DNA of 64,000 bases from Rhodamnia argentea (taxonomy: Eukaryota > Streptophyta > Magnoliopsida > Myrtales > Myrtaceae): positions 12,958,001 through 13,022,000 of the forward strand of contig NC_063153.1 of NCBI RefSeq assembly GCF_020921035.1, given 5' to 3'. The notes below the pieces were generated by a model. It was not told where the DNA came from. It searched no databases and saw only the letters and a list, made by a program, of their open reading frames with translations. Within the stretch, counting starts at the first letter, position 1, and every line of letters starts with the position of its first letter. This document shows positions 9,302 through 59,424 of this stretch, piece after piece. Made by a program: the position numbers and the translations under genes.

Positions 9302-9306
9302 GCATT
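9302..9306. repeat. Target-site duplication, left (GCATT)
   Basis: GCATT immediately precedes the TG that opens the left LTR. The same 5 bp follows the CA that closes the right LTR at 22914-22918. Five bp is the usual Ty3/gypsy duplication length. Confidence 0.9.
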
Positions 9307-10739
9307 TGTCGCGACCTAAAAAATAAACGGGTTTATTTTCGGGCTAATGGATTATCAGGTTAATTAATTAACTAACCTAACTCGGACTCTCCCAAGTCCA
9401 TACCAAATCGCAACTTAAGATTCAAATAATTAACATGCAACGTGTTTTGAATTGGAGTCGCCACTAATCATTTTCGGTAGGTTGATTAGAAACCTAAATA
9501 AAATAGCGGGAGAAAACTATCTTATTTCCGCGAACCGGAGATTTTGAATTCGGGGATTTGGTTACGTCAGATTTCTCTAACGCCCTTTCGGTACCATTTT
9601 CATGAAAAATATTTGATTTGGCAATTTTGATGGATTTTACTTGAAATTCAAAGATGCAATTTTTTTGGTTTTTTCTTCTTTTTTATGGGGATGTAAAACA
9701 TTGAACTTTGTACGATATACACCATTGGTGATTTAGAAAGAAAGAAAATGCAGCCGATCACGAGTATTTATAAAAATAAATTAACATGTAATAATGCTAA
9801 AATTTGGAACATGTGGCATGTCTAAAATAAACAAACAAATATTCAAACCAAACGATTACATTTTTGTAGATCGAGATGGAAATGATTACCTTCTATTACA
9901 CAAAATCTTACTCACATACACGTTATAGTTCCCTTCAAGATCTCGGAGCTGGAAGAACGCGGCTGTCGTCGAAAATGGCAAGCAATGGCCTTGTTGGGTT
10001 GCGAGGGGCAAAATATGTGTCGGGACTCGTCGAAGATGATGCTCGACTAAAACACTTTTCTTCACTCTCGAATTTTCTCTTTTGATTTTTCTCAAGAACT
10101 CTCTTTTTCCTCTCTAAAAATTCCTCTCAAAAACTCTCTCAAAACTCTCTCAATTCTCTTCCACTCTTCCTAAAAAACTCTCTCAATTCTCTTCTACTCT
10201 CTCTCTCAATTCTCTTCCACTTCCCCCTCCTAAAACTCTTCTCAAGAGCTCTCTCTTTTATAGGCAAAGTTCTTCATCCTTCATTCTTCACCTTCATTTC
10301 TTCACCTTCCATCTTCATCTTCTCTTCTTCATCTTCATTTCTTCACCTTCCATTTTCATCTTCCCTTCTTCATCTTCATTTCTTCACCTTCCATTTTCAT
10401 CTTCCCTTCATTATCTTCCCTTCATCATCTTCCCTTCTTCATCTTCTTTTCATTATCTTCCCTTCTTCATCTTCTTTTGGTATTTGCAATACAGTCCCCG
10501 AAGTTCCAAGTATTTGCAATACAGTCCCTGAAATTTTAAGTATTTGCAATACAGTCCTTGAAGTTTCAAATCTTCTCGGTGTATTTTTCCATCCCGTGCC
10601 TAGTCTAGACGCATGCTAAATTAAGTGTTACGCTTGCCCGATTATATGTCAATGCAATGTACGCTAAAAATAAATATGTGAGATGATTTTTTATAATTTT
10701 TATGCAAAAAATAGATTAATCAAAATTTAGGCGTCAACA
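9307..10739 (-). repeat. Left LTR (3' LTR of the minus-strand element)
   Basis: It opens TGTCGCGACC and closes GGCGTCAACA on the plus strand, giving TG...CA ends. It includes a (TCTC)-rich and CTTCATCTTC-rich stretch (10080-10480), and three copies of TATTTGCAATACAGTCC near 10490-10565. It is nearly identical to 21479-22913. Confidence 0.95.
10257..10263 (-). promoter_or_regulatory. TATA box in the left LTR
   Basis: On the minus strand it reads CCTATAAAAGAGAG. The same sequence is in the right LTR, where it would drive the genomic transcript toward lower coordinates. Confidence 0.6.
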
Positions 10740-10755
10740 GCTGCCCCTCTTTGAG
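10740..10755 (-). other. Polypurine tract
   Basis: On the minus strand CTCAAAGAGGGGCAGC directly abuts the TGTTGACGCC end of the left LTR. A purine-rich run at this position primes plus-strand DNA synthesis and fixes the element orientation. Confidence 0.8.
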
Positions 10756-11111
10756 TGGAGGCTCGTAGAGGTTCCGCTCAAAGACAAAATTGAATCCTAA
10801 ATTTTGACAGTGCAAATTATGGATGAACTTTTTGGCGGGAGTTTTAATCCCATTTTTTATGTAATGAAGTGATGCATGATATGCAAGACCGTAAATAACA
10901 CGTGTCATAATTTCCCTTTTTCATGTTAGAGAAACTTGCACATGGATCGCATACAAGAATACCTGTTTTACCAAATTTCTCGTAAGCTAATGGTTATCTT
11001 AATTTCCAAGTTTCTTTTTGCGGATGCAAGGATTTTAAGGTATTTGGCCTATCTGTTATCGGAGACTTCTCCCTAATGCAAGACAGCGCAAGATATGTGT
11101 GTCGTTTGAGA

Positions 11112-11480
11112 TCACAAGAGCTACGTCGTTGTGAGTTGAAAGAAGTGGAACCAAGTTCACAAGAGCTACGTCGTTGTGAGTTGATTAAATGTTGAAATCG
11201 CCGGTGCATATGTCTTCACGATTCGACAAAGGGGAAACAAAATCATAAGAGCTACGTCATTATGATTTGGTTTGGATCAAAACCATGGGTGCTTATGTCT
11301 TCATGATTTGATAAAGGAGCCGAAAATCATAAGAGCTATGTCATTATGAGCCGACTAAAGGTCAAGATCACCGGTGCATATGTCTTCGTGATTCGAGACC
11401 GAAATCATAAGAGCTACGTCGTTATGATTTGATAAGATGTCAAGATCGCCAGTGCATATGTCTTCACGACTCGACGGAAG
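11112..11480. repeat. Tandem repeat array with a conserved dyad, five copies
   Basis: A 23-bp module recurs at 11112, 11157, 11243, 11327 and 11405, mostly 78-86 bp apart. Each has 6-bp inverted arms around GAGCTAYGTC. In the first two copies the arms are TCACAA and TTGTGA; in the last three they are TCATAA and TTATGA. Between modules GTGCATATGTCTTCACGATTCGA or a close relative recurs about four times. It lies in the 3' part of the element, where Tat-lineage elements often carry tandem repeats. Confidence 0.85.
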
Positions 11481-11626
11481 AGGCATATTGCCCGAATTGA
11501 ACAATATTTGATAGGAGCACCATCGAATGGAATCGATAAGTACAAAAGGGGCATATTGCCTGAATTGAATCATAACAACTATCATGAGAAGAGTTGTTAA
11601 TTTGAAAAGGGGTTCAGAAAACTTAC

Positions 11627-11773
11627 CCGGGTTCTCCAAACGATTAATCAAGGAACGAAGCTGATTGTCGTATCGTACCTGGTAGGCATTTGCCAGCAAA
11701 ACTTGCTCATTCAATAATCCTTGGATGAATTTCGAGACCTTGGGAGTGAACTCGAACATCGGGAATGTATTAC
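11627..11773 (-). other. Exon-like segment of unknown origin inside the retroelement
   Basis: On the minus strand a 147-nt segment is open in frame, preceded by TATGATAG as a possible acceptor and followed by GTAAGT, a perfect donor. The peptide contains FPMFEFTPKVSKFIQGLL and RSLINRLENPG. I do not recognise the family. It may be another captured host-gene exon, or chance. Confidence 0.25.
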
Positions 11774-11809
11774 CTATCATAGAATGTCGAGGTAACACAC
11801 ACAAACATA

Positions 11810-14100
11810 TTCAACAATGAGTATAATGCAATCACTCATACTATGGTTCATGCATAACCATTCTGTCAAGTTTGCATTACCAATTTTGTCCAGGGAGGTT
11901 CTCACATTACGAATACCTCGAATGTGAGCTGAATGGGGGACTTCGGTCCAAACGGCTTTCTCTCACTCTCGAGAAAAGCTATTTATCCCGTCTCGAGGAT
12001 TCAAGAGAAATCACTCAATCTTTCCATCATCGCATTCGATAAGGATCCAAGTAATCTCGCAATTGATACGACCGAGTCGATCCGGAGGTCTTGATTAGGA
12101 CCGTAATGAGAGCTAGGTCAAAGGTTTACAAAGGGGACTCCAGGTTGAGTCAAGGTTCTTGAAATGAATTTCTTCATCATTTGCTCCGGATTTACAAGTC
12201 AAGAATCCTGCAAAAATGAGAGAGAAATAATCTTGCTCGAACTTCTTCGAGTGATGCTTAAAATCATTTAACTCTACGTTAACTCAAGTGCCCTAATCGA
12301 AGAGACTTTGGAGGGTTATAACGTAGGCTAGGATTGGGGACCGAGGAACGAAAAGGCTCGTTTTGGCTCAGAAATTAAATGAGAAGGGGCTTGACGTTGG
12401 TGATCATCGCCGACTAGTCACCGATCTTGGTCTTCTGGAAATGTCTTCAAAAAGAATACCATCATTGAATGAGGGATGGTAGTTTTCTACTGAAAATTGC
12501 ACTTTACAAACCGATTTCTTGGGGAGTCTTCTTCACAACAAGTGTCTGTCAAGGATTTGCAAGAGACACAATGCAAACATGTACATGGAATTTACAACTT
12601 AACATGCAAAAATGTACATTCAAAATTCAGAAGTACTTTACAAATGAATGTGCATTGGCCTTACTTTTGGTAGGCACTTTGCTTTTCCTATGCTTGAAAT
12701 TTTCATATGAGATCGGCCTTTGCTTTTCTTACTCCCGACTCTCATTTTTTCTTTTTTTCTTCTTTTTTTTTTTAGAAGAGATTTCTTTTCCTTTTTCTTT
12801 GAGAGATCTTCGACATCTCTTTATTTTGCTTTTTTTTTTATTTTTATTTTTTCGAGAGCGGGCCCTTCTCCTTTAAGCTGAGTTTGCCTCTCCTTTTTTT
12901 TACAATCCCATGATTTTGAATCGGGAATTACAACAAACATAAACATTTACAAAGAAAAATTATGTAAACATAAAAAATCTAGCATACAAGAAATGAGTCC
13001 ATTCGGGAATTCTCTGTTGACCCGACCATCTCCAATTCTAATCCTTGGGAAAATGCTATCTTCGTCTTTGGAATGAGCAAATGATCACCAACGGGGGTTT
13101 AAGAAATGAATTTGCAGGCTCAAGTGGGCTATGCAAAGAATGAAGTGTATAGGATAGAGAAGTGAATGCTCTTCATCATCCTAAGGCACTTGAATTAAAA
13201 TTCGAGTATAAATGCAAAGAAACACCCGAAGATTAATGTTAGTCCGAGCAAGAAAATTTCTAACCATTTACCTCGTGTTGCTTCTGGAATTAACTCGTTT
13301 GGACCCCGATATGGGGTGGTTCTTGACAGGGGTAAAGAAATGAAACCACCGCTCAAAATGGTCAATCAATGGATAACCCGTAGTGTTTAAGATAGAGAAC
13401 TGAATGCCTCTGTCATTTCGGCTATCGTACCTTTTGCGAGAAAACCTTTTACCTTGTGAATGCGGAACTTAGCTACCGTTCAACTCGCTTGAAAAAATAG
13501 GACGTGTTTGGAAAAAGATTGCCTTTCATCATCCCGCCCTGCCCCATTCCATACATTCGATGTATCTTATGTAGTTCATGTTCCTTATTCAGAGTTGGTA
13601 AATTAAACATGAGGAACAGTCATGCGCAAACTATGCAATGTATGAGTGTTTTTGAGCATATAAAATGCAGCAACTTTTTATCTTGGTGGACAGAATTCGC
13701 AAGCACATAAGAAACTTCTTAGGGGCGTGGATTGGGAGTTGCCCCTGCTCATGCAAATGAGTTGCAAAACTTCATTATCCGGTTCGAGACATGAGATTGT
13801 CAAAGGCTCCGGGAATTTCTTATTTCATTGATTTTTTCGGGGAGAATGGATACTTCCCTATCCGGAAAGGCGGTGACCCCTGTAAAAATCAAAAGGGAAA
13901 GCATCAATGTACGTTCTCATGTTCTAAACGAGTTGAAACGATACCGCTTTACCCTTGTACGTATTCCTTGCAAAGATCGATTCATCTGGATCGGATTGTA
14001 TGTCCGGGATGTTATCTCTCCGCTTTTCGTAACCATCTTGGCTGAGTTTCAATCGGCACCGAATCGCGAAGCAAAAAAGTTTTTATTAATCTTTGTACAT
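11810..14100. other. Non-coding part of the retroelement 3' region
   Basis: I see no intact or recognisable gene. Short plus-strand frames (12469-12876, 13828-14103) are low complexity or lack family motifs. A long TTTC-rich tract lies at 12735-12855. Confidence 0.4.
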
Positions 14101-14103
14101 TGA

Positions 14104-14180
14104 TGCCAAATCTCGGGATCGAACCCGAGATGCCTCGGACCACTGTCATTCCCCCAACCACTAGGCCGTGGTGATGTTGG
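14104..14180 (-). other. tRNA-like unit with Pol III A and B boxes
   Basis: On the minus strand CGGCCTAGTGGTTGG resembles an A box. CTCGG-GTTCGATC-CCGAG is a perfect T arm containing the B box GGTTCGATCCC. The ends GCCAA and TTGGC pair for five bases, then fail. The D and anticodon arms do not fold into a standard cloverleaf, so it is a tRNA pseudogene or SINE head, not a working tRNA. Confidence 0.55.
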
Positions 14181-14589
14181 CGTCCATGGTTGGTTCGCTT
14201 TTTGCTATATTGTTCTCAAAACAGTTGGCAATCCCCCGTCGAGAATAAAATAAGCATAATTTAGAGTTTGAAATGACCGAGAGCCAATTGGGACGATACG
14301 GAGTTACCCATCTTTGAGCCCGCTTGGCCTTTTACTCGTATTCTCCCAAGTAAGGCTATTCGGAATTTCTCTTTACGGGCGTTCAGAGGCGTCGTCCACA
14401 AATTGATTTGCTACGGGCCTAGCTTAGTAAGGAACTTACGCATTTGACAAGAGAGGAGAAAATTCGTCCTTTAACTCTAGGCAAATTCTAGACAGTTAGA
14501 AAGTAAAAAAAAATCCCACGTAGGGGAACTATACATGGAATTAAAGGAGTATTCATGCGAGATTGGTTCCACCTCTCTTGCTGGCCACT

Positions 14590-15615
14590 TCAACGATCAA
14601 CCGATTCTCGTCTTGGACTAAACACCAACAATCGTTGTTTGAAGACCCATAATAACTTGCTTCGGATCACGGCTCGAGGTCCTTCATTTCCAAACAGGCT
14701 CATCAAGGTAGCAAGCTCATCATCAAAGTAATCTTCTCGATTTTTCGAGCAATTGATACTCGAATTGGGCATTGTTACTTGCTAACACCGGTGACAGATT
14801 CTTGTGAGCGGTCGACTCCTTAAGCTTGAGCCTCCGTCGTTGCTCGGGAACTTGTAGGGATGATCAACTGTCCGCTACTAGAACCACCAGCGGAATGTTG
14901 GTATAACCCGTATTCTTGATTGGGAAGTGGCCGGGTACCTTTTGCTCGGTAGGTTTTCCCGAATTGATCTTCCACCAACTCGGTCCGGTCGCCTTGGTCC
15001 CAAGCTGCATCGTGCTTCCTCGCCTTATCTCTAACCCTTTGAAGGTGATTTGTGACACTTTGCATGGTGAGTCCGTCTATATTCATCATTTTATGTACAG
15101 CCCAGTGGTCGTCTTGAATTGATTCCTAGCCGTCGAACCGCCTCAATGAATATAGAATGAAGCTTGGCGGACCAAAGGGGCCTTTTCTTTTGGACAAAAT
15201 CGTCGTCGTCGCCTTGGTCGTGGTTTTTTTGTACAAGTAATTGCTTCCTTACAGCATGCTGCCAAATGTTTTGGAGCACTTGGACGCAGATCGGCTTCAC
15301 GGGACGTCTCGAGCACCATGCGATATGGCCCTCGTTATGAACTGGCGATCATTACTTGCCGATACTACGATGACCGTATGTCCAACTCGGAATCAATGAT
15401 CTTCAAGAGATCGAAACCGTCCATGTCGATCCCTACGACGGCCGTGACGACGATGTCAAAATCATATTTGTACGCCTCGCACTTGTAAGGCATCCGTTGC
15501 TTTCGCATTAGCAAAAACCCCGTACATGCAACTTCTCAAAGATAGCAACGAGGATTGAGAGGGAAACGGGGTTGCCATCAATGACCATGACTCGCAGATC
15601 TTCGGGATAGGAAGG
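14590..15615 (-). pseudogene. Captured type-B response regulator (ARR-B-like), degenerate
   Basis: Read on minus, 15615-15390 encodes a receiver domain: LRVMVIDGNPVSLSILVAI, then after a frameshift FDIVV-TAVVGIDMDGFDLLK. Then come VLQNIWQHAVRK (about 15280) and a GARP/Myb-like DNA-binding domain, KKRPLWSAKLHSIFIEAVRRLGI (15190-15130) and MMNIDGLTMQSVTNHLQRVR (15089-15030). A C-terminal piece, DYFDDELATLMSLFG, is near 14700. Type-B regulators are cytokinin-response transcription factors. Here the acidic pocket reads DGN instead of DDD, and the phosphoacceptor position reads Ala instead of Asp. At least two frameshifts and several stops break the frame. The strand is the same as the host element. 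The domain order and family motifs make the identity strong; the function is lost. Confidence 0.8.
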
Positions 15616-15954
15616 TTCCCATACTTCCGCCTGGAATGAACGTGTTTTTCTTTTAAAACCTTCCATATGTAGATCAAAAATGGCTGTTTCGACCAGAGAC
15701 CGAGCTTTAGATGTTCTCGGACTTGCAAAACAATCCGCCCGAAAATCACAAAAGTGATGGTGGTCTTTCGTGACGAGTTCTGGTGGTCATTTATAAACTT
15801 TTTCTGATCCGTTAGTCTCGCATATAGGTTCTCGTTTTTTCTACGAAAGAGGACAACTTTTTCTCTCCTTTCCGGTCTTAGTGCCTTGGATCCATTTCGT
15901 AATAACTCTTGCCTCTCACTCAATCTGTCATCTTTTTCCTTTTCTGATATGTAG

Positions 15955-16150
15955 GAGCCCTCAAATCTTTTCGCTTTCTCTATGAACGAGGCAGTTATTT
16001 CCTTCCTCGGATCTTTTCGGTTCCCCCTACGAACGAGGCGGTTATTTCCTTCCTCGGATCTTTTCACTTCCTCCCGAGGCAGTTATTTCCTCGAATCTTT
16101 TTGCTTTCTCTAATAACGAGGCAGCTATTTTTTCTCAAATCTTTTTGCAT
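15955..16150. repeat. Short tandem repeat, about 45 bp, four copies
   Basis: The module CGAGGCAGTTATTTCCTTCC followed by TCGGATCTTTTCGC recurs at about 15987, 16033, 16075 and 16117, with spacings of 41-47 bp and some divergence. It lies between the response-regulator and homeobox fragments of the retroelement. Confidence 0.65.
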
Positions 16151-16435
16151 CTATCTATGTGAAGGCTTTTAATGCTTTTCCTTTCGGCGTTCAGTCAAAT
16201 CTGACAAAGAATTCACGCATTTAAGCATGATGATATTTGCGGATAGTACTGTTCTTTGCCCCTTGATTAACTCTAGGCGTAAAAGGAAGAATGTCTCACA
16301 TGGGGACTTTGTAACAAACAGTACATTCATTCACGCATGTCTCTACTTCTCTTGAGAATTCATAAGGGCTAGCTAGTAATGCTCAAAAGAGTGATATTTT
16401 GAAAGCCCATAATAAAAACTCAAGCTTCATGTAGG

Positions 16436-16975
16436 CTACTGATTCGGAGTTTCATCGGTGTTGAATTGGCCGAGCGTGACATCGTGGAAACTCCAATTGT
16501 AGTGATGCATGTCACTTCCCTCGAAGGGCATCGGTTCCGCCTCCGCAAGGCCGACATTCCGGGATGTATCCCCAACGAAATCCGATTGTGCGAGAACTTG
16601 CTCGGGAGGATGAATCGATAAATGAGCATTTTCAATGCTCGGATGTGGCTCATCAAGGAACATGCCACCAAAGGTGATGGGGTTGCTTTGCAGACATGGC
16701 AAATAGCGATGTTAAGAGCATCCCTATACCTCTTGATCTCTCGCTCGAAGCTCTTCATTTTCTTCCTTTAGAGACGCAAGTTCATGACTTTCACTTCGAA
16801 CCTTCACTCGGGCCCGCTTGTTTTGAAACCAAAACCCGACCTTCAAGGGCTCCATTCCTAGCTTCCGGCTCAACTCATTTTTTTCGTTTCCCGTTCACGT
16901 AAGGGCACTCCTTAAAGGCAGCTTTGAGCTCTTTGATTTGATGTTTTCTTTTCGGGGTTGACTACGGCTGCTTGC
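16436..16975 (-). pseudogene. Captured HD-ZIP class IV homeobox fragment, degenerate
   Basis: On minus, 16960-16885 gives HQIKELKAAFKECPYVNGK. After a one-base frameshift in a run of seven A, 16878-16750 gives ELSRKLGMEPLKVGFWFQNK followed by RARVK. This is homeodomain helices 1-3 with the invariant WFQNKR. It continues as a zipper-like segment (HELASLKEENEELRAR) and then YRDALNIAICHVCKA and DEPHPSIENAHLS, the CxxC and ENARL features that follow the homeodomain in class IV proteins. The START domain is not seen. Class IV proteins control epidermal fate. The piece is in the sense orientation of the element and is broken by frameshifts, so it is a relic. Confidence 0.8.
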
Positions 16976-17626
16976 TGCTGCTATTGTTGTTGCTTGTTAT
17001 CGAGATCTTGAACTTCACCGCCAAGGGAGTTGGGTTTTACGGCCGGCTGGATCCGGCCTCGAAATTCAGCAGTTCATTCTCGGGGATGTCTAGGTTGGTT
17101 GCCTCCAAGTAAGTGCTTGGTAGCCTCCAAACATATTGGATTGAAATACTTCTTACGCCTTTTGTTCACTCTACTCTCCGTTGTATGCTTACTCTCTCCA
17201 AATTCTTCCGAGTAAACATGCATGTTCCGTAGTCTCCCTTTTAACGTGGATGAAAACCACCAAGCCAGTGCTTCTCCCAAGATTTCATGTTTCCCGCCCT
17301 GTCTTCTTCATTTCCTTCTGACATGCTGGGACCCTCAAATCTTTTCTGCAGTATGCTTGTCCCTCTTTTAATATGGCGAGACCTTTAAGTCATTTCGCAA
17401 CTTTTTCGAATTGGTGAGCCTCGAGATGGTAGATCCGTGATTCACGGACGAAACGTCCGTAGTTTTGCCCGGATAATTAACTCGGCCCCCACAATAATTA
17501 TTGCTATAACTTTTTCTGCCCTTTAAATTAGGATTTAACGCTGAGACGATTATCGCTTTCATATCTTCATCTCTAACCTTCTAAGCACTCTTTCGCATCC
17601 ACTCTTTTTTAGCAGCTTAAGCAACA

Positions 17627-18358
17627 ATGGCCTCCCTCCCCGCACGCGTCTTCTCGACTGAAGTTTTGGCCAAATGGGAGAAACTTTATAATCTCTTAGG
17701 CCAGGGCTACTCTTATATAGCCAACCATCCGGAGGTCGAAACCGAAATCCGTCTCATGTTTACGGATATGGACACCGTTTCTATTCAAGGTACCGAGTTA
17801 GAAAAGGAATATAGGATCTTCCCTACCCTCTTCACTAACTTCCTGGAGGCTTACCATCTTGCTCATCAAGATGTTACTTTGGCTCATCTTGTGAGAGCTC
17901 GCTATCGGGATCGGTCGGACAGCTTGGTGTTGGCCGGTCTTGTAGCCGACAATCATAAGAAGGCCCTTGACTATGGTAATGAACAAGTCTCGCCGCTGAT
18001 TCGTGAGAGGGGGAACTTGGTGGAACGTTTGGCCATGTCCCGGACCATCTTCGAGCGCGATCCGCTCGATATCGTTTTGAAATTCCAATGCACATGGCTG
18101 GAATAAAGGCTGGACGATCCGACCCTAGATATAGCCCGCGGGAGAATGCCGATCCATGACTTGGAATCTGCTGCCGAGTATCACGAGGACGGGGTGGCCA
18201 AGCTTAAAGAGAAATGTGAGCTCCTCCTCTTTAAGCTGGCGGATCTCGATTCTCGAAGCGATCGGTGTAGGCGGAGCATCAACCGTATGGAGAGTCGGTT
18301 AAACTCCTTTGTGATGCTCATTAGGGCTCGGTTTGGCTTTACGTTCCCACCCCGATGA
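17627..18358 (+). pseudogene. Antisense ORF of the retroelement, one in-frame stop
   Basis: This plus-strand frame, opposite to gag and integrase, starts in strong context (CAACAATGG) and runs 243 codons to TGA at 18356. A single TAA at 18104-18106 interrupts it; the frame is otherwise fully open, giving parts of 159 and 83 residues. The N-terminal part begins MASLPARVFSTEVLAKWEKL; the C-terminal part (EYHEDGVAKLKEKCELLLFKL) looks like a coiled coil. I recognise no domain. Extra ORFs in antisense orientation between pol and the 3' LTR are reported for Tat-lineage elements, and its position just beyond integrase fits. The stop could be a single CAA-to-TAA change. Confidence 0.6.
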
Positions 18359-18705
18359 TCTGTTTGTAAGGCTCTCCGATGGATGAAATAAATGCAAGTT
18401 TTTACTCATTTGCATTTCGCTTTCGCATTATTCGATCTTCCATATGCTGACAGATTGAATGGGCTCTTCATTTTACTCATTTCATCTTGGTCGTCATATC
18501 TTTTTTTGCAAGATAAGCCTTTTACTCTGTGAATATGTAAATCTCACGCTACCGATGGTCATTTCAATTGGGCCGGAGAGACTCCCCCATTTGAAACAAT
18601 CTCTCAGCAAAGATTAGTAGCGAGGAAATAAACGAATGCCCAAATGTGAACAACTCGTGAATCCGTATTAATATTATAACTCGATTATGAAAACATCAGA
18701 GTGAA

Positions 18706-19665
18706 TCAAGTATAATATTTCTTTACGGAGTCAGAACTAATCAGGTTGGTAAAGACATGACCGTCCATCTCGGCCATAATCAAAGCACCACCAGGGAGCA
18801 CCTTCTTTACTATATATGGACCACCATAGTTTGGAGCGAATTTCCCTTCTGGGAGTGGGACTATTGGCAATAATTTTCTCAAGACCAGGTCATTGATCCG
18901 AAAATATCGAGGCCGAACTTTTTTGTTGAATGATTTAGCAACTCTCTGCTGATAACACCGGCCATGACATACAGCCTTAAGTCTCTTTTCGTCGATCAGA
19001 TTCAATTGGCTTGCCCTCTCTTGGATTCATTCGGTTTCCGTCGACTTAGCTTGAGAGACGGTATACGTAAGGAAGGAATTTCCACTTCAACCGGTAGAAT
19101 GCCTCCATTCCATATACAAGAGAATACGGGGTTGCCCCGTAGATGTCCGGATCGAGGTCCGATACGCCATAAGTGCAAATGGCAACCTCTCATGCCAATC
19201 GCGATAATTTTCAGCCGTCTTCGCTAAGATTTTCTTGATGTTCTTATTGGCGGCTTCTCTTGCTCCATTCATCCGAGGACGATATGGGGAAGAGTTCGGA
19301 TGCTTGATCTTGAATTCTTTGAACAATTCGTCCATTAGCTTGTTGTTCAAGTTTGAGCCATTGTCGGTGATTATGGCTTCGGGTGAACCATATCGAGCGA
19401 TGATATCTCGACGGATAAATTTCACGATATTTCGTCTTGTGACCGCTAAATAAGATGCGACTTCGATTCATTTAGAGAAATAGTCAATTGCTACCAAGAT
19501 GAATCGATGCCCATTGGATGCTTTAGGATTGATAGGGCTGATAACATCAATGTCCCACATAGAAAACGGCCATGGTTCGGATAACCGATGCAACTCGTTC
19601 GGAGAGACATTAATCTTGTCACCATGAATCGACATTTGTGACAACTCCGGACATGCTTGAACCGG
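18706..19665 (-). pseudogene. Integrase remnant of the Ogre/Tat-like element
   Basis: On minus, the region begins with a zinc-region remnant (MSIHGDKINVSPNELH), then the first catalytic Asp stretch (WPFSMWDIDVISP... ATIDYFSK equivalent), the second (IITDNGSNL) and the glutamate stretch (SPYRPRMNGAREAANKNIKK). The C-terminal domain (RYFRINDLVLRKLL, GPYIVKKVLPGGAL) ends at 18706. An in-frame TGA follows DYFSK at 19468 where Trp is expected. A frameshift near 19100 moves the reading into another frame (PVEVEIPSL) before it returns. It is not functional as read. Confidence 0.85.
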
Positions 19666-20252
19666 GTTGGAAGTTCCATCATACTTTTCGAAGTCGGGCA
19701 TCTTGAACTTTTCCGGCACAATGATCTTTGAAAAGACAGGGCATGTGTCGACCGGGGTATGTTGTGAGTCCCCTCGACCTCTCGGATCCTCCTGTTCCAT
19801 TTGGGCCAATAGCTTGGCCGTATCACCATTCAATCCGGGGCCACGGGGCTGGCTTGAGGGATTGGGACTACGGGCGGCGTGCTCGAGCTCACGCCCGTGA
19901 TGATCACATCCTCTACCGGCATTGTCGGATAGGGAGTAGCTTCCGGGGCTTTACCGAAGTTGTCCGTAGGAGGAACTAGAGCAGGAAGCGGCGGGATGGC
20001 GGCGGATGATTGAAGTTTGGCGGTGAAGGCGGCCATAATTTCTTCCATCTTTCGGGACATCATCCCTTCAAAGCGCTCGATCAAGGAGCCAAGTTTCTCG
20101 TCTAGGGCAAAGACCGACGATAGCGTTGATGTCGGACATCCTCTTTGCGACCGATCGAGTAATGTGTAGAGGATCCGTGACAAATTACCCGTACGCAATA
20201 ACAAACCCAAAATGAGTATAGGGAGCAAGAATAACGAGCCGGCCCATGACAT
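19660..20252 (-). pseudogene. Gag remnant, truncated and fused to integrase
   Basis: On minus, 20252-19830 encodes an N-terminal gag-like segment (KMEEIMAAFTAKL, then a Pro-rich linker). After a frameshift, 19833-19660 gives VPEKFKMPDFEKYDGTSNP, the sequence that normally precedes the Retrotrans_gag core in this lineage. The frame then passes straight into integrase sequence at about 19660, so the rest of gag, protease, reverse transcriptase and RNase H have been deleted. Confidence 0.75.
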
Positions 20253-20259
20253 CCCTCTA

Positions 20260-21457
20260 GACTCAAACGAACAAAGTGATTATGGCCAAAGGATTGAAAC
20301 ATGTAATTTTCAGTTTGTCCGCTTTTACGAAAAAATTCGTATTAATCCGTACGTTGATCAAAACATGTCCAAATTTTACGAGCTTATAGTTGAGAAGGTG
20401 ATGAACAACTTTTATGTTGGCCAATCAGACTAGAAATGCACGGATCAAATCAGTTTAATGTGTCTCTCCAAAACAATCACGTTCAGAAAACTGTTATAAC
20501 CGCATGTTGTTGAAAAAACGAAGGGCCATCTTAAATTATGAATTTAATTCTGAAATTTTGCAAGATATTAGTTGAAACATAGGTCTACAACTTTCGTGTT
20601 TGGCACTTACTCAAAGCTCGATCGTAGAATTTAGTAAAAATCGCACAACAGGAATAAGCCAAATCAAAATTGAGGACAACCGATGAAATTGTAAAAGCTA
20701 CGGAAGCAAAGTGCGAAATTGAAAATAAGACAATGAAACTTCTAAACAATCAACCTAAACCATGGACCGGCCCAAAATAAAAATGAGATAACAGGGTACA
20801 AGAGACAAGAAATTACCTCTCATACGAAGAAAATGCCAATCACAAAGACATGCGCATGAATTGTGAATTTAAATCTTATTCTATCTATCCAAAAGGCTTT
20901 TGCAAAGTGAAATGATGAACGAAATGACATGTCGCAGCCTCGCGCGCAATCATCATGACTAGTCGCAACCTCGCGTACAATAGTCATGACTAGTCGAGTC
21001 CAATCACTTCGGCTTGGTTCGGTCGACAAGGGCAATTCTCATGCATCGTAGCCTCACGTGTATGAGAACGACCCTTGAGCCATTTTTTGGAAAAATTTTC
21101 GGGATCCAGATGGGATAACCTTTAGCGAAACCTTACCGCCAAGGTTAAAGCACCATCTAAATACCATCTTAAAACTATTAGTGTGACCCGGGTCCGGTCA
21201 CGGGTTGTGTGCAGTGTAGTGCAAATACGATAAATCATGCACAACAATTAAAGGCAAACACCGCTTCAATGATTCAAAAGTTAAATCACAATTCCAATTC
21301 ACCAAGCTCGCAAAACAAAGGGTTAGCCGATCACTCCTCCCCTTATAACTCCCAATCTGCAAAAACATTTAACACCTAAGAATGAGAATTCAACCAAAGT
21401 TTACCAAATCAAGTGATTTCTTTTTCATGAAATTATCTGGCCTAAGTCCTCTTTGAA
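20260..21457 (-). other. 5' untranslated region of the retroelement
   Basis: There is no coding signal. A short repeat, CATGACTAGTCGCAACCTCGCG / CATGACTAGTCGAG, with partial copies occurs at 20930-21000. The stretch lies between the primer-binding site and the gag remnant. Confidence 0.5.
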
Positions 21458-21475
21458 TCCCCAGCTGAGTCGCCA
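21458..21475 (-). other. Primer-binding site resembling tRNA-Arg
   Basis: On minus, TGGCGACTCAGCTGGGGA begins three bases inside the right LTR. From memory, the 3' end of plant tRNA-Arg(ACG) plus CCA pairs with 17 of 18 positions. Use of tRNA-Arg is characteristic of Ogre elements. Confidence 0.8.
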
Positions 21476-21478
21476 AGC

Positions 21479-22913
21479 TGTCGCGACCTAAAAAAAATAA
21501 ACACGTTTATTTTCGGGCTAATGGATTATCGGGTTAATTAATTAACTAACCTAACTCGGACTCTCCCAAGTCCATACCAAATCGCAACTTAAGATTCAAA
21601 TAATTAACATGCAACGTGTTTTGAATTGGAGTCGCCACTAATCATTTTCGGTAGGTTGATTAGAAACCTAAATAAAATAGCGGGAGAAAACTATCTTATT
21701 TCCGCGAACCGGAGATTTTGAATTCGGGGATTTGGTTACGTCAGATTTCTCTAACGCCCTTTCGGTACCATTTTCATGAAAAATATTTGATTTGGCAATT
21801 TTGATGGATTTTACTTGAAATTCAAAGATGCAATTTTTTTGGTTTTTTCTTCTTTTTTATGGGGATGTAAAACATTGAACTTTGTACGATATACACCATT
21901 GGTGATTTAGAAAGAAAGAAAATGCAGCCAATCACGAGTATTTATAAAAATAAATTAACATGTAATAATGCTAAAATTTGGAACATGTGGCATGTCTAAA
22001 ATAAACAAACAAATATTCAAACCAAACGATTACATTTTTGTAGATCGAGATGGAAATGATTACCTTCTATTACACAAAATCTTACTCACATACACGTTAT
22101 AGTTCCCTTCAAGATCTCGGAGTGGAAGAACGCGGCTGTCGTCGAAAATGGCAAGCAATGGCCTTGTTGGGTTGCGAGGGGCAAAATATGTGTCGGGACT
22201 CGTCGAAGATGATGCTCGACTAAAACACTTTTCTTCACTCTCGAATTTTCTCTTTTGATTTTTCTCAAGAACTCTCTTTTTCCTCTCTAAAAATTCCTCT
22301 CAAAAACTCTCTCAAAACTCTCTCAATTCTCTTCCACTCTTCCTAAAAAACTCTCTCAATTCTCTTCTACTCTCTCTCTCAATTCTCTTCCACTTCCCCC
22401 CTCCTAAAACTCTTCTCAAGAGCTCTCTCTTTTATAGGCAAAGTTCTTCATCCTTCATTCTTCACCTTCATTTCTTCACCTTCCATCTTCATCTTCTCTT
22501 CTTCATCTTCATTTCTTCACCTTCCATTTTCATCTTCCCTTCTTCATCTTCATTTCTTCACCTTCCATTTTCATCTTCCCTTCATTATCTTCCCTTCATC
22601 ATCTTCCCTTCTTCATCTTCTTTTCATTATCTTCCCTTCTTCATCTTCTTTTGGTATTTGCACATACGGTCCCGAAGTTCCAAGTATTTGCAATACGGTC
22701 CCCGAAATTTTAAGTATTTGCAATACAGTCCTTGAAGTTTCAAATCTTCTCGGTGTATTTTTCCATCCCGTGCCTAGTCTAGACGCATGCTAAATTAAGT
22801 GTTCTGCTTGCCCGATTATATGTCAATGCAATGTACGCTAAAAATAAATATGTGAGATGATTTTTTATAATTTTTATGCAAAAAATAGATTAATCAAAAT
22901 TTAGGCGTCAACA
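21479..22913 (-). repeat. Right LTR (5' LTR of the minus-strand element)
   Basis: This is a near-identical copy of 9307-10739. It carries the TATA box TATAAAA (minus) at 22430-22436. The most visible differences from the left copy are around 22660-22720 and 22803 plus a few single-base indels. Confidence 0.95.
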
Positions 22914-22918
22914 GCATT
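22914..22918. repeat. Target-site duplication, right (GCATT)
   Basis: This is an exact copy of 9302-9306 directly after the right LTR. Confidence 0.9.
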
Positions 22919-36905: not shown

Positions 36906-36911
36906 CCAATC

Positions 36912-36993
36912 GTCGCTTTGGCCGAGTGGTTAAGGCGTGTGCCTGCTAAGTACATGGGGTTTCCCCGCGAGAGTTCGAATCTCTCAGGCGACG
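36912..36993 (+). tRNA. tRNA-Ser, anticodon GCU
   Basis: A complete 82-nt class II tRNA. The acceptor stem is GTCGCTT with AGGCGAC, including one G-T pair, with discriminator G. The A box is TGGCCGAGTGG. The anticodon GCT (36945-36947) sits in loop CTGCTAA; then come a long variable arm (CATGGGGTTTCCCCGCG) and T arm GAGAG-TTCGAAT-CTCTC. The long variable arm and GCU anticodon make it serine, reading AGC and AGU. No intron, and no encoded CCA. Confidence 0.97.
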
Positions 36994-37005
36994 TCTCTCT
37001 CTCTC

Positions 37006-40377: not shown

Positions 40378-40539
40378 CCCGACCCCGAGGCCTTGTTGGA
40401 CTTTGTATAAAGATGGAGTCATCCTTACCACATAACCATCCCTCCCACTACTTCATTAGTTCACGATGCAGCCATCATGACAAAGGGATCCCATCTTCCC
40501 TTAAATTCCGTTTGTTTCACGAAGGATAAACGCTTTAAA

Positions 40540-40548
40540 AAATATTTA
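40540..40548. repeat. 9-bp target duplication, left (AAATATTTA)
   Basis: It directly precedes GGGAAAATTT of the Pack-MULE-like element; an identical AAATATTTA follows its right end at 42385-42393. Confidence 0.85.
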
Positions 40549-41069
40549 GGGAAAATTTCAATTAAGGTCCTCAAGTGCCCCGATTTTTTCAAATAGGGGT
40601 CCGAAGTTGATTTTGTTACAAATAAGGGCCCGAAGTCCTTTATTTGTATCAAAGAAGGAGCCTGATTTTTGTCTTTTTCTCTTTTTTGCAATTTTGTCTT
40701 TCTTTTTCTTCTTTCCTTTGCTTTTCATTTTTTTCTTTCCCTTTTTTTTTCTTTTTCCCCTCCCCTCCCCTCCCCCAGCGGCAACTGTCCACCATTGACG
40801 TCTGCTTCTCTCTCTCTCTCTCCCTCTCTCTGCTCGTCCACACACTCTCTCTCTCCAGTCTGATCTCCAGCATAACCGGCATGTGAAGCGGAGCAAGATA
40901 TTGCAAGAATGCATTTGCATACTCTGCATTGGATTAGTCTTTCTGCTGGGTACACTTAAAATTCTCTCCATTTTTGTTCTTCGTTTCACCGATTTCCTGA
41001 TTTCTCCTTCTCGGTCATCGAATGTTCAAGGACTTAGTCATCCTTAGGCTTGAGAGTCCCTCTTCTCTC

Positions 41070-41770
41070 CCACCGACCCGACCCGTCTCCTTCCCTTTGC
41101 TCCAGCAACCTCCCGACCTCCCCCTCACCCGCCTGCGCCGCCACCTTCTTCTGCGCCTCCTTCGCCTTGAGCGCCTGCAGCTTCGAGTGGTTGTAGTACG
41201 CAACGCGAGCTCGTACTCAAACAGGTTCACCGGCGTCACCGTGTCATTGATCACCGACCACGAGAAGGCGATCAGCAGCTAGTCTTTCACCACGCCCGCC
41301 ACGTTCATCGTCAGCGCCGAGGTCTTCCCAACGAGTAGGAACACTGCCAGGTTGAGCGCGAACGCGCAGAGCGAGTTGGTCCCGAAGACCAAGAGGTCGG
41401 GCCGGAAGCTCAAGGACTTGACAAGCACCAAGTGCTCCATGAAGACCCACGACACGAGCAGGAAGACGAAGCAACACAGCACAACGTAGTATAGCGATGT
41501 GATGGGGTTTAACTGAATCCCCTTGGAGGTGAGTAGGATCTGGATCAGGACCAACCTCGTGGCCTCGAAGGCGATGGCGCCGAGCTGGAGGGTCACGCCC
41601 CAGGCGTCGAATTGGCTTCGCTGTAGGCGGCTACGCTGAGCGAGATCGACGCCACATTCAGCATGGTCTGGGACTTGAAGGTCTCTCTCTTAAGCAAGAC
41701 GCCGATGGGGTGGACGGCGACGGGCATGAGGGCCTTGAGCATCTGGATGAAGGAGACGGTCCACCATTGA
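41070..41770 (-). pseudogene. Captured TPT/NST-type sugar-phosphate translocator fragment
   Basis: On minus the fragment gives [33 protein letters not shown], then after a frameshift [56 protein letters not shown] and [19 protein letters not shown] follows where Trp is expected, then [20 protein letters not shown] and, after another frameshift, [16 protein letters not shown]. These are the C-terminal membrane helices of the plant nucleotide-sugar/triose-phosphate translocator family (putative phosphate translocators). The N-terminal half is missing. One TAG and two frameshifts show it is dead as a translocator. Confidence 0.85.
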
Positions 41771-41854
41771 CGTCTGACCTCCGGACGCCACTGAGGTCAA
41801 AAACGACAACAACCGCAGTCTCAAGTTTCTGTTTCCTCCAAATATTCTTACTCT

Positions 41855-41985
41855 CAGCGATGACGTGAACATGATCAGCGTCTGGCTATCGTACTTGCAG
41901 TACTGGTTGGTTGTTGCGTCCTCCATCTTCTTCCTGTACACCGACGGGAAGAACTTCTTCAGGAGCGACGGCCGGCGTGTCTGCT
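41855..41985 (-). pseudogene. Captured hexose transporter (STP/MFS) exon fragment
   Basis: On minus the fragment reads [20 protein letters not shown], then [20 protein letters not shown]. This is the first extracellular loop and start of helix 2 of plant sugar transport proteins. It is followed by AGAGTAAGAATATTT, which resembles the exon end plus intron donor, so capture was probably at DNA level. Only about 40 codons are present. It sits 90 bp from the translocator fragment, an unrelated family with a similar substrate class. Confidence 0.8.
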
Positions 41986-42384
41986 TTTTTTTCTCTCTCG
42001 CTCTCTCTCTCCTTCTTTGCTGGTTTTCTTTGAATCTCAAACAGGTGAAAATGAAGAGATAGAGACTTGCAAGAGATCAGACTGGAGAGAGAGAGTGTGG
42101 ACGACTAGAGGGAGAGAGAGAGAAGCATACATCAAGGGTGAACCGTGGCTGGGGACGGGGAGGGGAGGGGAAAAAGAAAAAGAACAAGAAAAAGGGAAAG
42201 GAAAAAATGAAAAGGAAAGCAGAAAAAGAAAGATAAAATTGCAAAAAAAAAAAAGAAAAAGACAAAAACCAGGCCCTTCTTTGAAACAAATAAGGCATTT
42301 CGAGCCCTTATTTGAAATGACGTGCACTTTGGACCCTTATTCGAAAGAATGAAGGCACTTGAGGCCCTTAATTGGAATTTTCCC

Positions 42385-42393
42385 AAATATTTA
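42385..42393. repeat. 9-bp target duplication, right (AAATATTTA)
   Basis: Identical to 40540-40548, directly after the right inverted repeat. Confidence 0.85.
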
Positions 42394-42394
42394 T

Positions 42395-43110
42395 TTAAAA
42401 ATGATTGATTATATCGTATAAAATAGCAAATTAAAGAAAAATATTTTCATTGCCGATGACGTTTTGGCTCCATCCGTTCTGCGAAAAACGATCACCAGAA
42501 AAATGTTTTCTAAATTTTTTGGATGAAAAATACATGATTTAAGGAAAATTTTTCCATTAATGAAAAAAAAAAAAACACCATCAAAAGTGAAGAAAATGAT
42601 TTCTTATTTTTGAAAACCATTTTCCCTATCTTTCCTTGCTCCGCTTCTTCATCTTCCTTTTCTCTTTAGTTATTTTAATAAAACATTGTTTTTTTCCTTT
42701 TCTTTTTAATTTTTTTTATTTCTTTTTTTTCCTTTTTCCTCGGCCTACGAGCCTCGAGCTCGCCGGATCCCGCAGGCTTGGGCTCTCTAGTGACCGTTGC
42801 CGGCCGTTGTGGTGGAGGAAGGAAGAAAAAGAAAAGGAAAGTGGAAAGAGAAAAATAAAAAAAAATAATTAAAATTTCTACTTTTTTAAAAAAATAAAAA
42901 ATAAAATATTAAAATGGGTGCACGAAAGGAAAATCAAATTCAATTTTTCATACTAAATGACGAAAATATTTTCCAGTTAATTTTTAGGATTCAGTCGAAC
43001 ACCGAAGAATATTATCATTTTCTTGGAAAATGACTTCGATTGAGCCCTTCACGAATAAATATTTTCATGAACGATGAAAATGCTCATCATTCGTTTATTT
43101 GTTAGAACAG
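42395..43110. repeat. AT-rich fold-back element (family D)
   Basis: The left arm, GAAAAATATTTTCATTGCCG and ACGTTTTGGCTCC, is echoed inverted on the right by TAAATATTTTCATGAACGATG and GAAAATATTTTCC. The centre (42740-42830) is GC-rich (CGAGCCTCGAGCTCGCC). No gene. Confidence 0.4.
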
Positions 43111-58954: not shown

Positions 58955-59424
58955 GTAGAAAATAAATGTAGAATGATACATTTCATTTTCTAACTTGACC
59001 ACCTAAAATCTCGTTTCAAGACATCGGCGTAATTTCGGTAGTTGGTGTCGCTCCGATCGCGTACTTTAGTCTAATTAATCTCACTTCAAATTGCCCTTTT
59101 TATAATTAGCGCCGCCGCAGATCGTTGAAGATTTTTCTTTCTGCAAGCGCTTTCATCGTCTAAGTTGCAACATATAAGTCTTATGCGTGTAGAAAAATAA
59201 ATGTAGAATGATACATTTCATTTTCTAACTTGACCACCTAAAATCTCGTTTCTCGACATCGACGTAATTTCGGTAGTTGGTGTCGCTCCGATCGCGTACT
59301 TTAGTCCGATTAATCTCACTTCAAATTGCCCTTTTTATAATTAGCGCCGTCGCAGATCGTTGAAGATTTTTCTTTCTGCAAGCGCTTTCATCATCTAAGT
59401 TGCAACATATAAGTCTTATGCGTG
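58955..59424. repeat. Recent tandem duplication, two copies of about 234 bp
   Basis: Copies 58955-59188 and 59189-59424 differ at only about seven positions by eye. Each begins GTAGAAAA-TAAATGTAGAATG and ends ATAAGTCTTATGCGTG. There is no coding frame. Confidence 0.9.

Follow-up and report, generated by a model that had tools for sequence, protein, structure and literature searches.

The element in the window and its two host-derived sequences

The window analysed here is a stretch of 64,000 nucleotides of Rhodamnia argentea DNA (contig NC_063153.1, positions 12,958,001 to 13,022,000). It contains one long terminal repeat (LTR) retrotransposon, which occupies 9307-22913 on the minus strand, is flanked on either side by the 5-bp target duplication GCATT, and carries degenerate sequences related to two plant transcription factor genes, an HD-ZIP IV homeobox gene and a type-B response regulator gene. 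One LTR family, to which this element belongs, has amplified the HD-ZIP IV and regulator pair together to about 260-275 places in the genome. The parts of the window element are the following.

9302-9306, no strand: left target site duplication, GCATT
9307-10739, minus: 3' LTR, paired with 21479-22913
10740-10752, minus: polypurine-tract-like AAAGAGGGGCAGC adjoining the 3' LTR, read from the sequence
14640-15667 (approximate bounds), minus: degenerate type-B response regulator (receiver and GARP-type domain) with broken frames; ARR1 E=2e-9; homologous to an open frame in copy L040
16425-17095 (approximate bounds), minus: degenerate HD-ZIP IV sequence with N-terminal part, homeodomain, zipper and short tail, without START
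17621-18355, plus: open reading frame (ORF) antisense to the element, with one interruption in the window; open over 229-275 aa in L061-L063
18700-19655, minus: integrase, 3' part; Pfam rve 9.7e-6 at 19090-19467
19655-20279, minus: presumed gag fragment joined directly to integrase, labelled by its Tat gag motifs; no Pfam match
21458-21475, minus: TGGCGACTCAGCTGGGGA, like a primer binding site (PBS), read from the sequence; candidate primer site
21479-22913, minus: 5' LTR
22914-22918, no strand: right target site duplication, GCATT

Paired LTRs, a target duplication, a PBS-like site and a purine tract are all present, as in an LTR retrotransposon. The PBS-like site adjoins the right LTR and the purine tract the left one, which places the element on the minus strand and gives both transcription factor fragments the same orientation as the integrase remnant, inside the LTRs and downstream of integrase, as the initial annotation had placed them. 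The sense order is gag-like fragment, 3' part of integrase, antisense ORF, HD-ZIP, response regulator, about 3.9 kb of further sequence and the 3' LTR. The window copy is without protease, reverse transcriptase and RNase H, because gag joins the 3' part of integrase directly, and the N-terminus of integrase is absent as well. The LTR pair differs by 9 substitutions and 5 insertions or deletions (indels) across 1431 aligned bp, which dates the insertion to about 0.24-1.3 million years ago at rates of 1.3e-8 to 2.5e-9 substitutions per site and year. Short internal tandem repeats lie within both LTRs (10270-10566 and 22444-22652), and a stretch downstream of the regulator, at about 14100-14180 (minus), looks tRNA-like by eye, with no call from ARAGORN.

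The host-derived sequences are recognizable in the window. A peptide encoded at about 16750-16920 (minus) matches the Pfam Homeodomain family (E=1.5e-7) and has PROTODERMAL FACTOR 2, an HD-ZIP IV protein, as its best PDB match (E=6.9e-13), while ARR1 is the top match of 15094-15348 (minus); both outcomes had been predicted. The Pfam scores of the window regulator are weak (receiver 0.12, Myb 0.053), and it differs from L040 by 15 indels, of which 11 involve one base. In contrast to the window copy, many family copies have open HD-ZIP and regulator frames, so the description of the two genes as relics fits the window copy and fails for the family. The span first proposed for them, 14590 to 16975, was right in position and apparently a little short at its end: the HD-ZIP part seems to begin near 17095 when compared by eye with L066.

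In the open frame of L040, the homeodomain scores 2.4e-17 and is followed by a zipper, and copies with open frames show the homeodomain, adjoining zipper and class IV similarity that characterize HD-ZIP IV proteins. No START domain was found in four scanned element peptides, the HD-ZIP frames finishing with a short tail, and none of the 24 START matches in the genome lies at any of the transcription-factor-bearing places that were checked. As for the regulator, the receiver and GARP-type DNA-binding domain of a type-B protein are both present in L066 (Response_reg 1.7e-8, Myb_DNA-binding 2.1e-6) and L040 (Response_reg 3.3e-14, and Myb_DNA-binding at 0.0047, below the Pfam cut-off), and the longest open frames that contain it reach 404 aa. 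The phospho-acceptor Asp of the host is replaced by Ala in L066, L040, L045 and L060, and the regulator looks like either a decaying passenger or a phosphorylation-independent remnant.

Copy number, structural forms and host origin of the family

The genome searched comprises 346.7 Mb in 74 contigs, eleven of which measure 24-37 Mb. With up to three mismatches allowed, a 24-mer from the response regulator occurs at 275 places and one from the HD-ZIP sequence at 261, and a reversed control gave 0, which answers in favour of a family the question of whether a single element or an amplified family was at hand. On contigs C1-C4, 72 of the 96 exact HD-ZIP matches are followed on their own strand, 1480-1985 bp downstream, by an exact regulator match, and 0/96 have an opposite-strand regulator match within 4 kb. 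The segment named in the initial annotation, used as a genome query as that annotation had proposed, returned 40 scored matches (the best 40 of 394 candidates, window included) with 92-100% identity over nearly its full length. Moreover, 28 of 30 loci found with a receiver profile are copies of the window element, 75-99% identical by block. Of 371 candidates for a PDF2 query, 151 matched. The 150 matches listed comprise 149 that span the two intron positions of the host and a single host exon; by our own count 22 of the 150 contain a stop, and at least 91 of the 149 have a regulator match downstream.

Separate insertions nested in one another, or a chance neighbourhood of transcription factor relics at one locus, would be a scarcely credible account of this pair. 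No support for it was found; the target duplication matches across the whole element, no nested boundary lies between the fragments, and it is already refuted by the many places at which the pair recurs in like order and spacing on one strand. With host relatives also identified, the suggestion of host-gene capture by one LTR family is borne out.

Both pol-bearing and deleted forms carry the pair. A probe consisting of the 75 N-terminal aa of integrase, which the window copy lacks, was scored for the best 150 of 1816 candidates, and at least 53 of the 150 have the HD-ZIP sequence, the regulator or both downstream at the expected distance (at least 42/74 at 79% identity or more, at least 8/44 at 75-78% and at least 3/32 below that); 14 of the 53 are located within open frames of 504-1072 aa. 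Among the 96 exact HD-ZIP matches on C1-C4, at least 29 have the N-terminal part of integrase 2.7-3.4 kb upstream, at least 30 have an exact 24-mer of the gag-integrase junction at under 3.2 kb upstream, no match has the two together, and 37 were assigned to neither form. This 24-mer (355 genome places) is not specific to the deletion, since gag and integrase seem to have a short repeat in common there, and it was used solely through its spacing to the HD-ZIP match. L062 and L063 show the same direct gag-integrase join in their DNA as the window copy. In L061 some 3.6 kb of other sequence stands at that point and integrase is longer, and in the old copy L066 both RVT_3 and integrase are found upstream. 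The pol deletion may have occurred at the short repeat TTCAGCATGTC, which in L061 lies on the side of integrase and in L063 at the junction, and which would presumably also have stood in the undeleted gag. A search with PF00078 (the best 150 of 3576 candidates) revealed by eye no reverse transcriptase beside the HD-ZIP and regulator pair, a result that does not decide the matter.

RVT_3 (1.4e-17) lies directly upstream of integrase in the old copy L070, in a region that is missing from the window copy; the position of an ordinary RNase H falls outside the sequence read. This arrangement fits Tat elements as far as they are described in the consulted part of a previous study (PMC6317226). The family is probably Tat-like Ty3/gypsy, its assignment to Ogre is not settled, and neither an Ogre nor a Retand marker turned up.

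In the host, an intron follows DLPVI in the type-B regulator genes L064 and L065, and two interrupt the HD-ZIP IV gene L069, which adjoins START matches, one after QELEA and the other after RTQMK. The element frames pass all three positions without interruption, and L066, judged by eye, is similar at its N-terminus to exon 1 of L069. Synonymous divergence (dS) between eight element copies and L069 is 0.58-0.80 and is saturated against the paralogue L068; given these values and the missing introns, the captured HD-ZIP sequence most probably derives, of the two host genes compared, from the L069 lineage in spliced form. The parent of the regulator was not found among the two host paralogues read, L064 and L065, against both of which the element regulator is saturated. 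Capture may have proceeded by template switching onto host mRNA, like retroviral transduction; alternatively, genomic DNA may have been taken up and have lost its sense introns through later splicing. Both host sequences came to lie between integrase and the 3' LTR of a Tat-like Ty3/gypsy family.

Elsewhere in the window, a tRNA-Ser gene lies at 36911-36995 (plus), while 58955-59424 holds a tandem duplication of some 235 bp (97%) and 40534-42399 an inverted repeat of some 330 bp (81%).

Selection on the captured genes and their possible function

Selection was assessed in two sets of copies, set A with 30 window-like copies (L001-L030) found with the segment of the initial annotation, and set B with 28 copies chosen by a good receiver match. 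In the regulator frame of set B, nonsense changes make up 1/202 of the variants shared by at least three copies versus 26/393 of the rarer ones, and 30/401 of the shared variants in the two other frames; the corresponding values in set A are 0/79, 10/149 and 6/156. The HD-ZIP frame of set B gave 1/130 for shared and 13/185 for rarer variants, with 18/258 in the other frames. A test of shared indels in set B covered 25 of the 28 loci, leaving out L040 as the reference and L038 and L057 as poor copies. Among indels found in at least three copies, multiples of three account for 7/8 in HD-ZIP, 4/7 in the regulator, 3/32 in the spacer and 2/8 downstream, and in set A the shared indels give 3/12, 4/32, 6/39 and 2/20, respectively.

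Amino-acid identity at a given nucleotide divergence was further compared with a neutral simulation, using L066 against copies of our own choice; the pairs have one long branch in common and are close to one comparison each. The HD-ZIP frame reached z=+3.7 (12 copies), the two other frames of the same sequence giving -0.9 and -1.3, while integrase gave +3.8 (1 copy) and +4.7 (3 copies), the receiver +2.25 (11 copies) and the HD-ZIP tail +0.3 (9 copies); shifted frames overall ranged between -1.8 and +1.5. The antisense ORF, which is seen at 17621-18355 (plus) in the window and in L061, L062, L063 and L070, is under clear coding constraint (+3.3 and +4.8, 3 copies each) and matched no Pfam family, so far as its sequence allows a judgement probably being a third accessory gene of an unassigned family. 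TRP28 (PF04195) was considered for this ORF and rejected after no match in four scanned stretches; a genome scan matched 0/6 scored candidates, though the positive control likewise gave no match.

Ratio estimates were less uniform. The ratio of nonsynonymous to synonymous substitutions (dN/dS) between L066 and 11 copies is 0.48-0.66 for the regulator, and that between L066 and seven copies is 0.17-0.30 for HD-ZIP, a value that was downgraded after a check of transversions; the regulator rows of that check, which may contain stops or misaligned positions, were left out. Binned ratios, apart from one HD-ZIP bin that is distorted by a copy whose HD-ZIP sequence is deleted, are 0.52-0.61 (16/26 copies) for the regulator and 0.53-0.82 (20/26) for HD-ZIP in the coding frame, compared with 0.58-1.01 and 0.58-0.78 in shifted frames. 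Against host L069, 33 copies of the same length show an amino-acid identity of 0.586 at 25.7% divergence, a comparison in which 1.9-3.0 stops per 86 codons would be expected under neutrality.

We read these results as real but moderate constraint on HD-ZIP in the old lineages, with a weak signal for the receiver and none for GARP, and as decay of both genes in the window-like subfamily while the element still spread. The spread of that subfamily with frameshifted genes implies that the genes are not needed in cis, and HD-ZIP constraint together with the spread of broken copies suggests that the START-less HD-ZIP protein may once have acted in trans on element or host transcription. Set A has 90 private indels in the 1008 bp of the regulator, compared with 34 in 929 bp of spacer and 46 in 887 bp downstream, an excess in density for which preferential breaking of the regulator and an assembly effect are the alternatives, and the regulator frameshifts of this set seem combined mosaically among copies, as if these recombined during reverse transcription.

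In our judgement the window copy is probably a recent pol-deleted member of a Tat-like family that carries a spliced HD-ZIP IV sequence and a type-B regulator, with the HD-ZIP protein having had a past role. Several results weigh against this explanation. Set B was selected for open receivers; in set A, HD-ZIP nonsense gave no signal (1/24 shared, 2/56 rarer) and frameshifts are common to many copies. GARP shows no constraint (z=+0.1, 11 copies), diversity is nearly flat across codon positions, and the ratio of nonsynonymous to synonymous changes is about the same in shared and rare variants. The transversion-only HD-ZIP ratio is near 1, from about 18 fourfold sites, and the identity to L069 is only slightly higher than that of neutral runs (0.53-0.54 at 25%). 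An autonomous form of the transcription-factor-bearing family is something that we infer, because no reverse transcriptase was among the sequence read from such copies. Self-activation through canonical sites was considered and rejected, the LTRs not being enriched for them: in four LTR sequences from three copies, the L1 box TAAATGYA occurs 0 times, which says little because just 0.10-0.20 were expected, its core TAAATG 0 times against 1.4-1.7 expected, and RGATY 11-15 times against 19-20 expected. The whole window element has two TAAATGCA only, both opposite to its sense strand.

Some of the same observations suit other explanations. The two processed host sequences might be passive passengers that never served the element, with open frames stemming mostly from the recent expansion of a few source copies; the frameshifted versions that spread in the window-like subfamily, the unconstrained GARP domain, the flat codon-position diversity and the dN/dS of the regulator would all agree with this, but HD-ZIP constraint confined to the coding frame and shared HD-ZIP indels that keep the frame speak against it, and we regard it as unlikely, though a serious contender. 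Less likely again, the START-less HD-ZIP protein and the phospho-dead regulator could be dominant negatives that compete with host HD-ZIP IV and type-B regulators instead of acting on the element's own promoter. A constrained homeodomain and zipper without START, the replaced Asp, and the lack of L1-box and RGATY enrichment in the LTRs point that way, whereas the unconstrained GARP domain and the continued spread of broken copies do not. We consider it rather improbable that assembly errors in a repeat, and not real decay, partly explain the breaks in the window copy. The indel/substitution ratio is indeed 0.08-0.36 between window-like copies versus 0.06-0.15 in six pairs of other copies, and private indels are in excess within the regulator of set A, but the LTR pair has just 5 indels and many frameshifts are common to several copies.

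Going beyond the past role favoured above, we suggest, as a tentative proposal held at somewhat less than even confidence, that a START-less HD-ZIP IV gene was kept long-term (host-element dS about 0.6) as a working accessory gene beside a phospho-dead regulator. Such a gene would parallel, in a plant, the transduced regulators of retroviruses; its product would work in trans in cells of the protoderm or meristem, and broken deletion derivatives would now be exploiting it.

Relation to known systems and significance

Retroviral transduction and the accessory regulators of retroviruses offer one point of comparison. In the consulted parts of the literature (PMC11963269), to which all citations in this section refer in the same sense, the likeness lies in spliced host regulators borne on a retroelement; unlike retroviruses, the window family has no envelope, and its function is only proposed. 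With Retand and other Tat elements the family shares a long region between pol and the 3' LTR, an antisense ORF located there, an RNase-H-like domain before integrase, and deletion derivatives (PMC11963269, PMC6317226). A survey of Retand elements in 617 assemblies reported that sense ORFs located between pol and the 3' LTR contain no known domain (Vicient 2025, PMC11963269); the window family, unlike those surveyed, has two sense genes of host origin, and its antisense ORF yielded no match to TRP28, which is typical of that of Retand elements. Host sequence in sense within an LTR element is also known from maize Bs1 and other host-gene transductions in plants, and PMC3726574 is cited among this known work. 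However, Vicient and Casacuberta (2020, PMC7264820) describe transduced ORFs as having a copy number of one or a few, in contrast to two transcription factor genes at about 260-275 places in pol-bearing and deleted forms. The VANC and KIU genes of VANDAL elements are likewise carried by transposons, some with a captured host domain, and act in trans on related copies, but VANDAL is a DNA transposon and its function has been reported (PMC13317346), whereas that of the window family is conjectural. No report of HD-ZIP or type-B regulators on a retrotransposon was found in the literature searched, which was mostly open-access and excluded preprints.

Among the matches listed for Arabidopsis PDF2 and ARR1 queries, intronless element-type matches outrank host exons, so that the size of a gene family counted in a genome of this kind may be in error. 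Most extra ORFs of plant retrotransposons are highly divergent and have no domains in common, and whether they have any function is a question that has been raised (Neumann 2019, PMC6317226), on which the present family bears. Host origin, splicing, copy history and one named constrained domain are all visible within one genome, and open, frameshifted, pol-bearing and pol-deleted copies provide natural contrasts in it; the family therefore offers a test of whether captured genes ever served the element.
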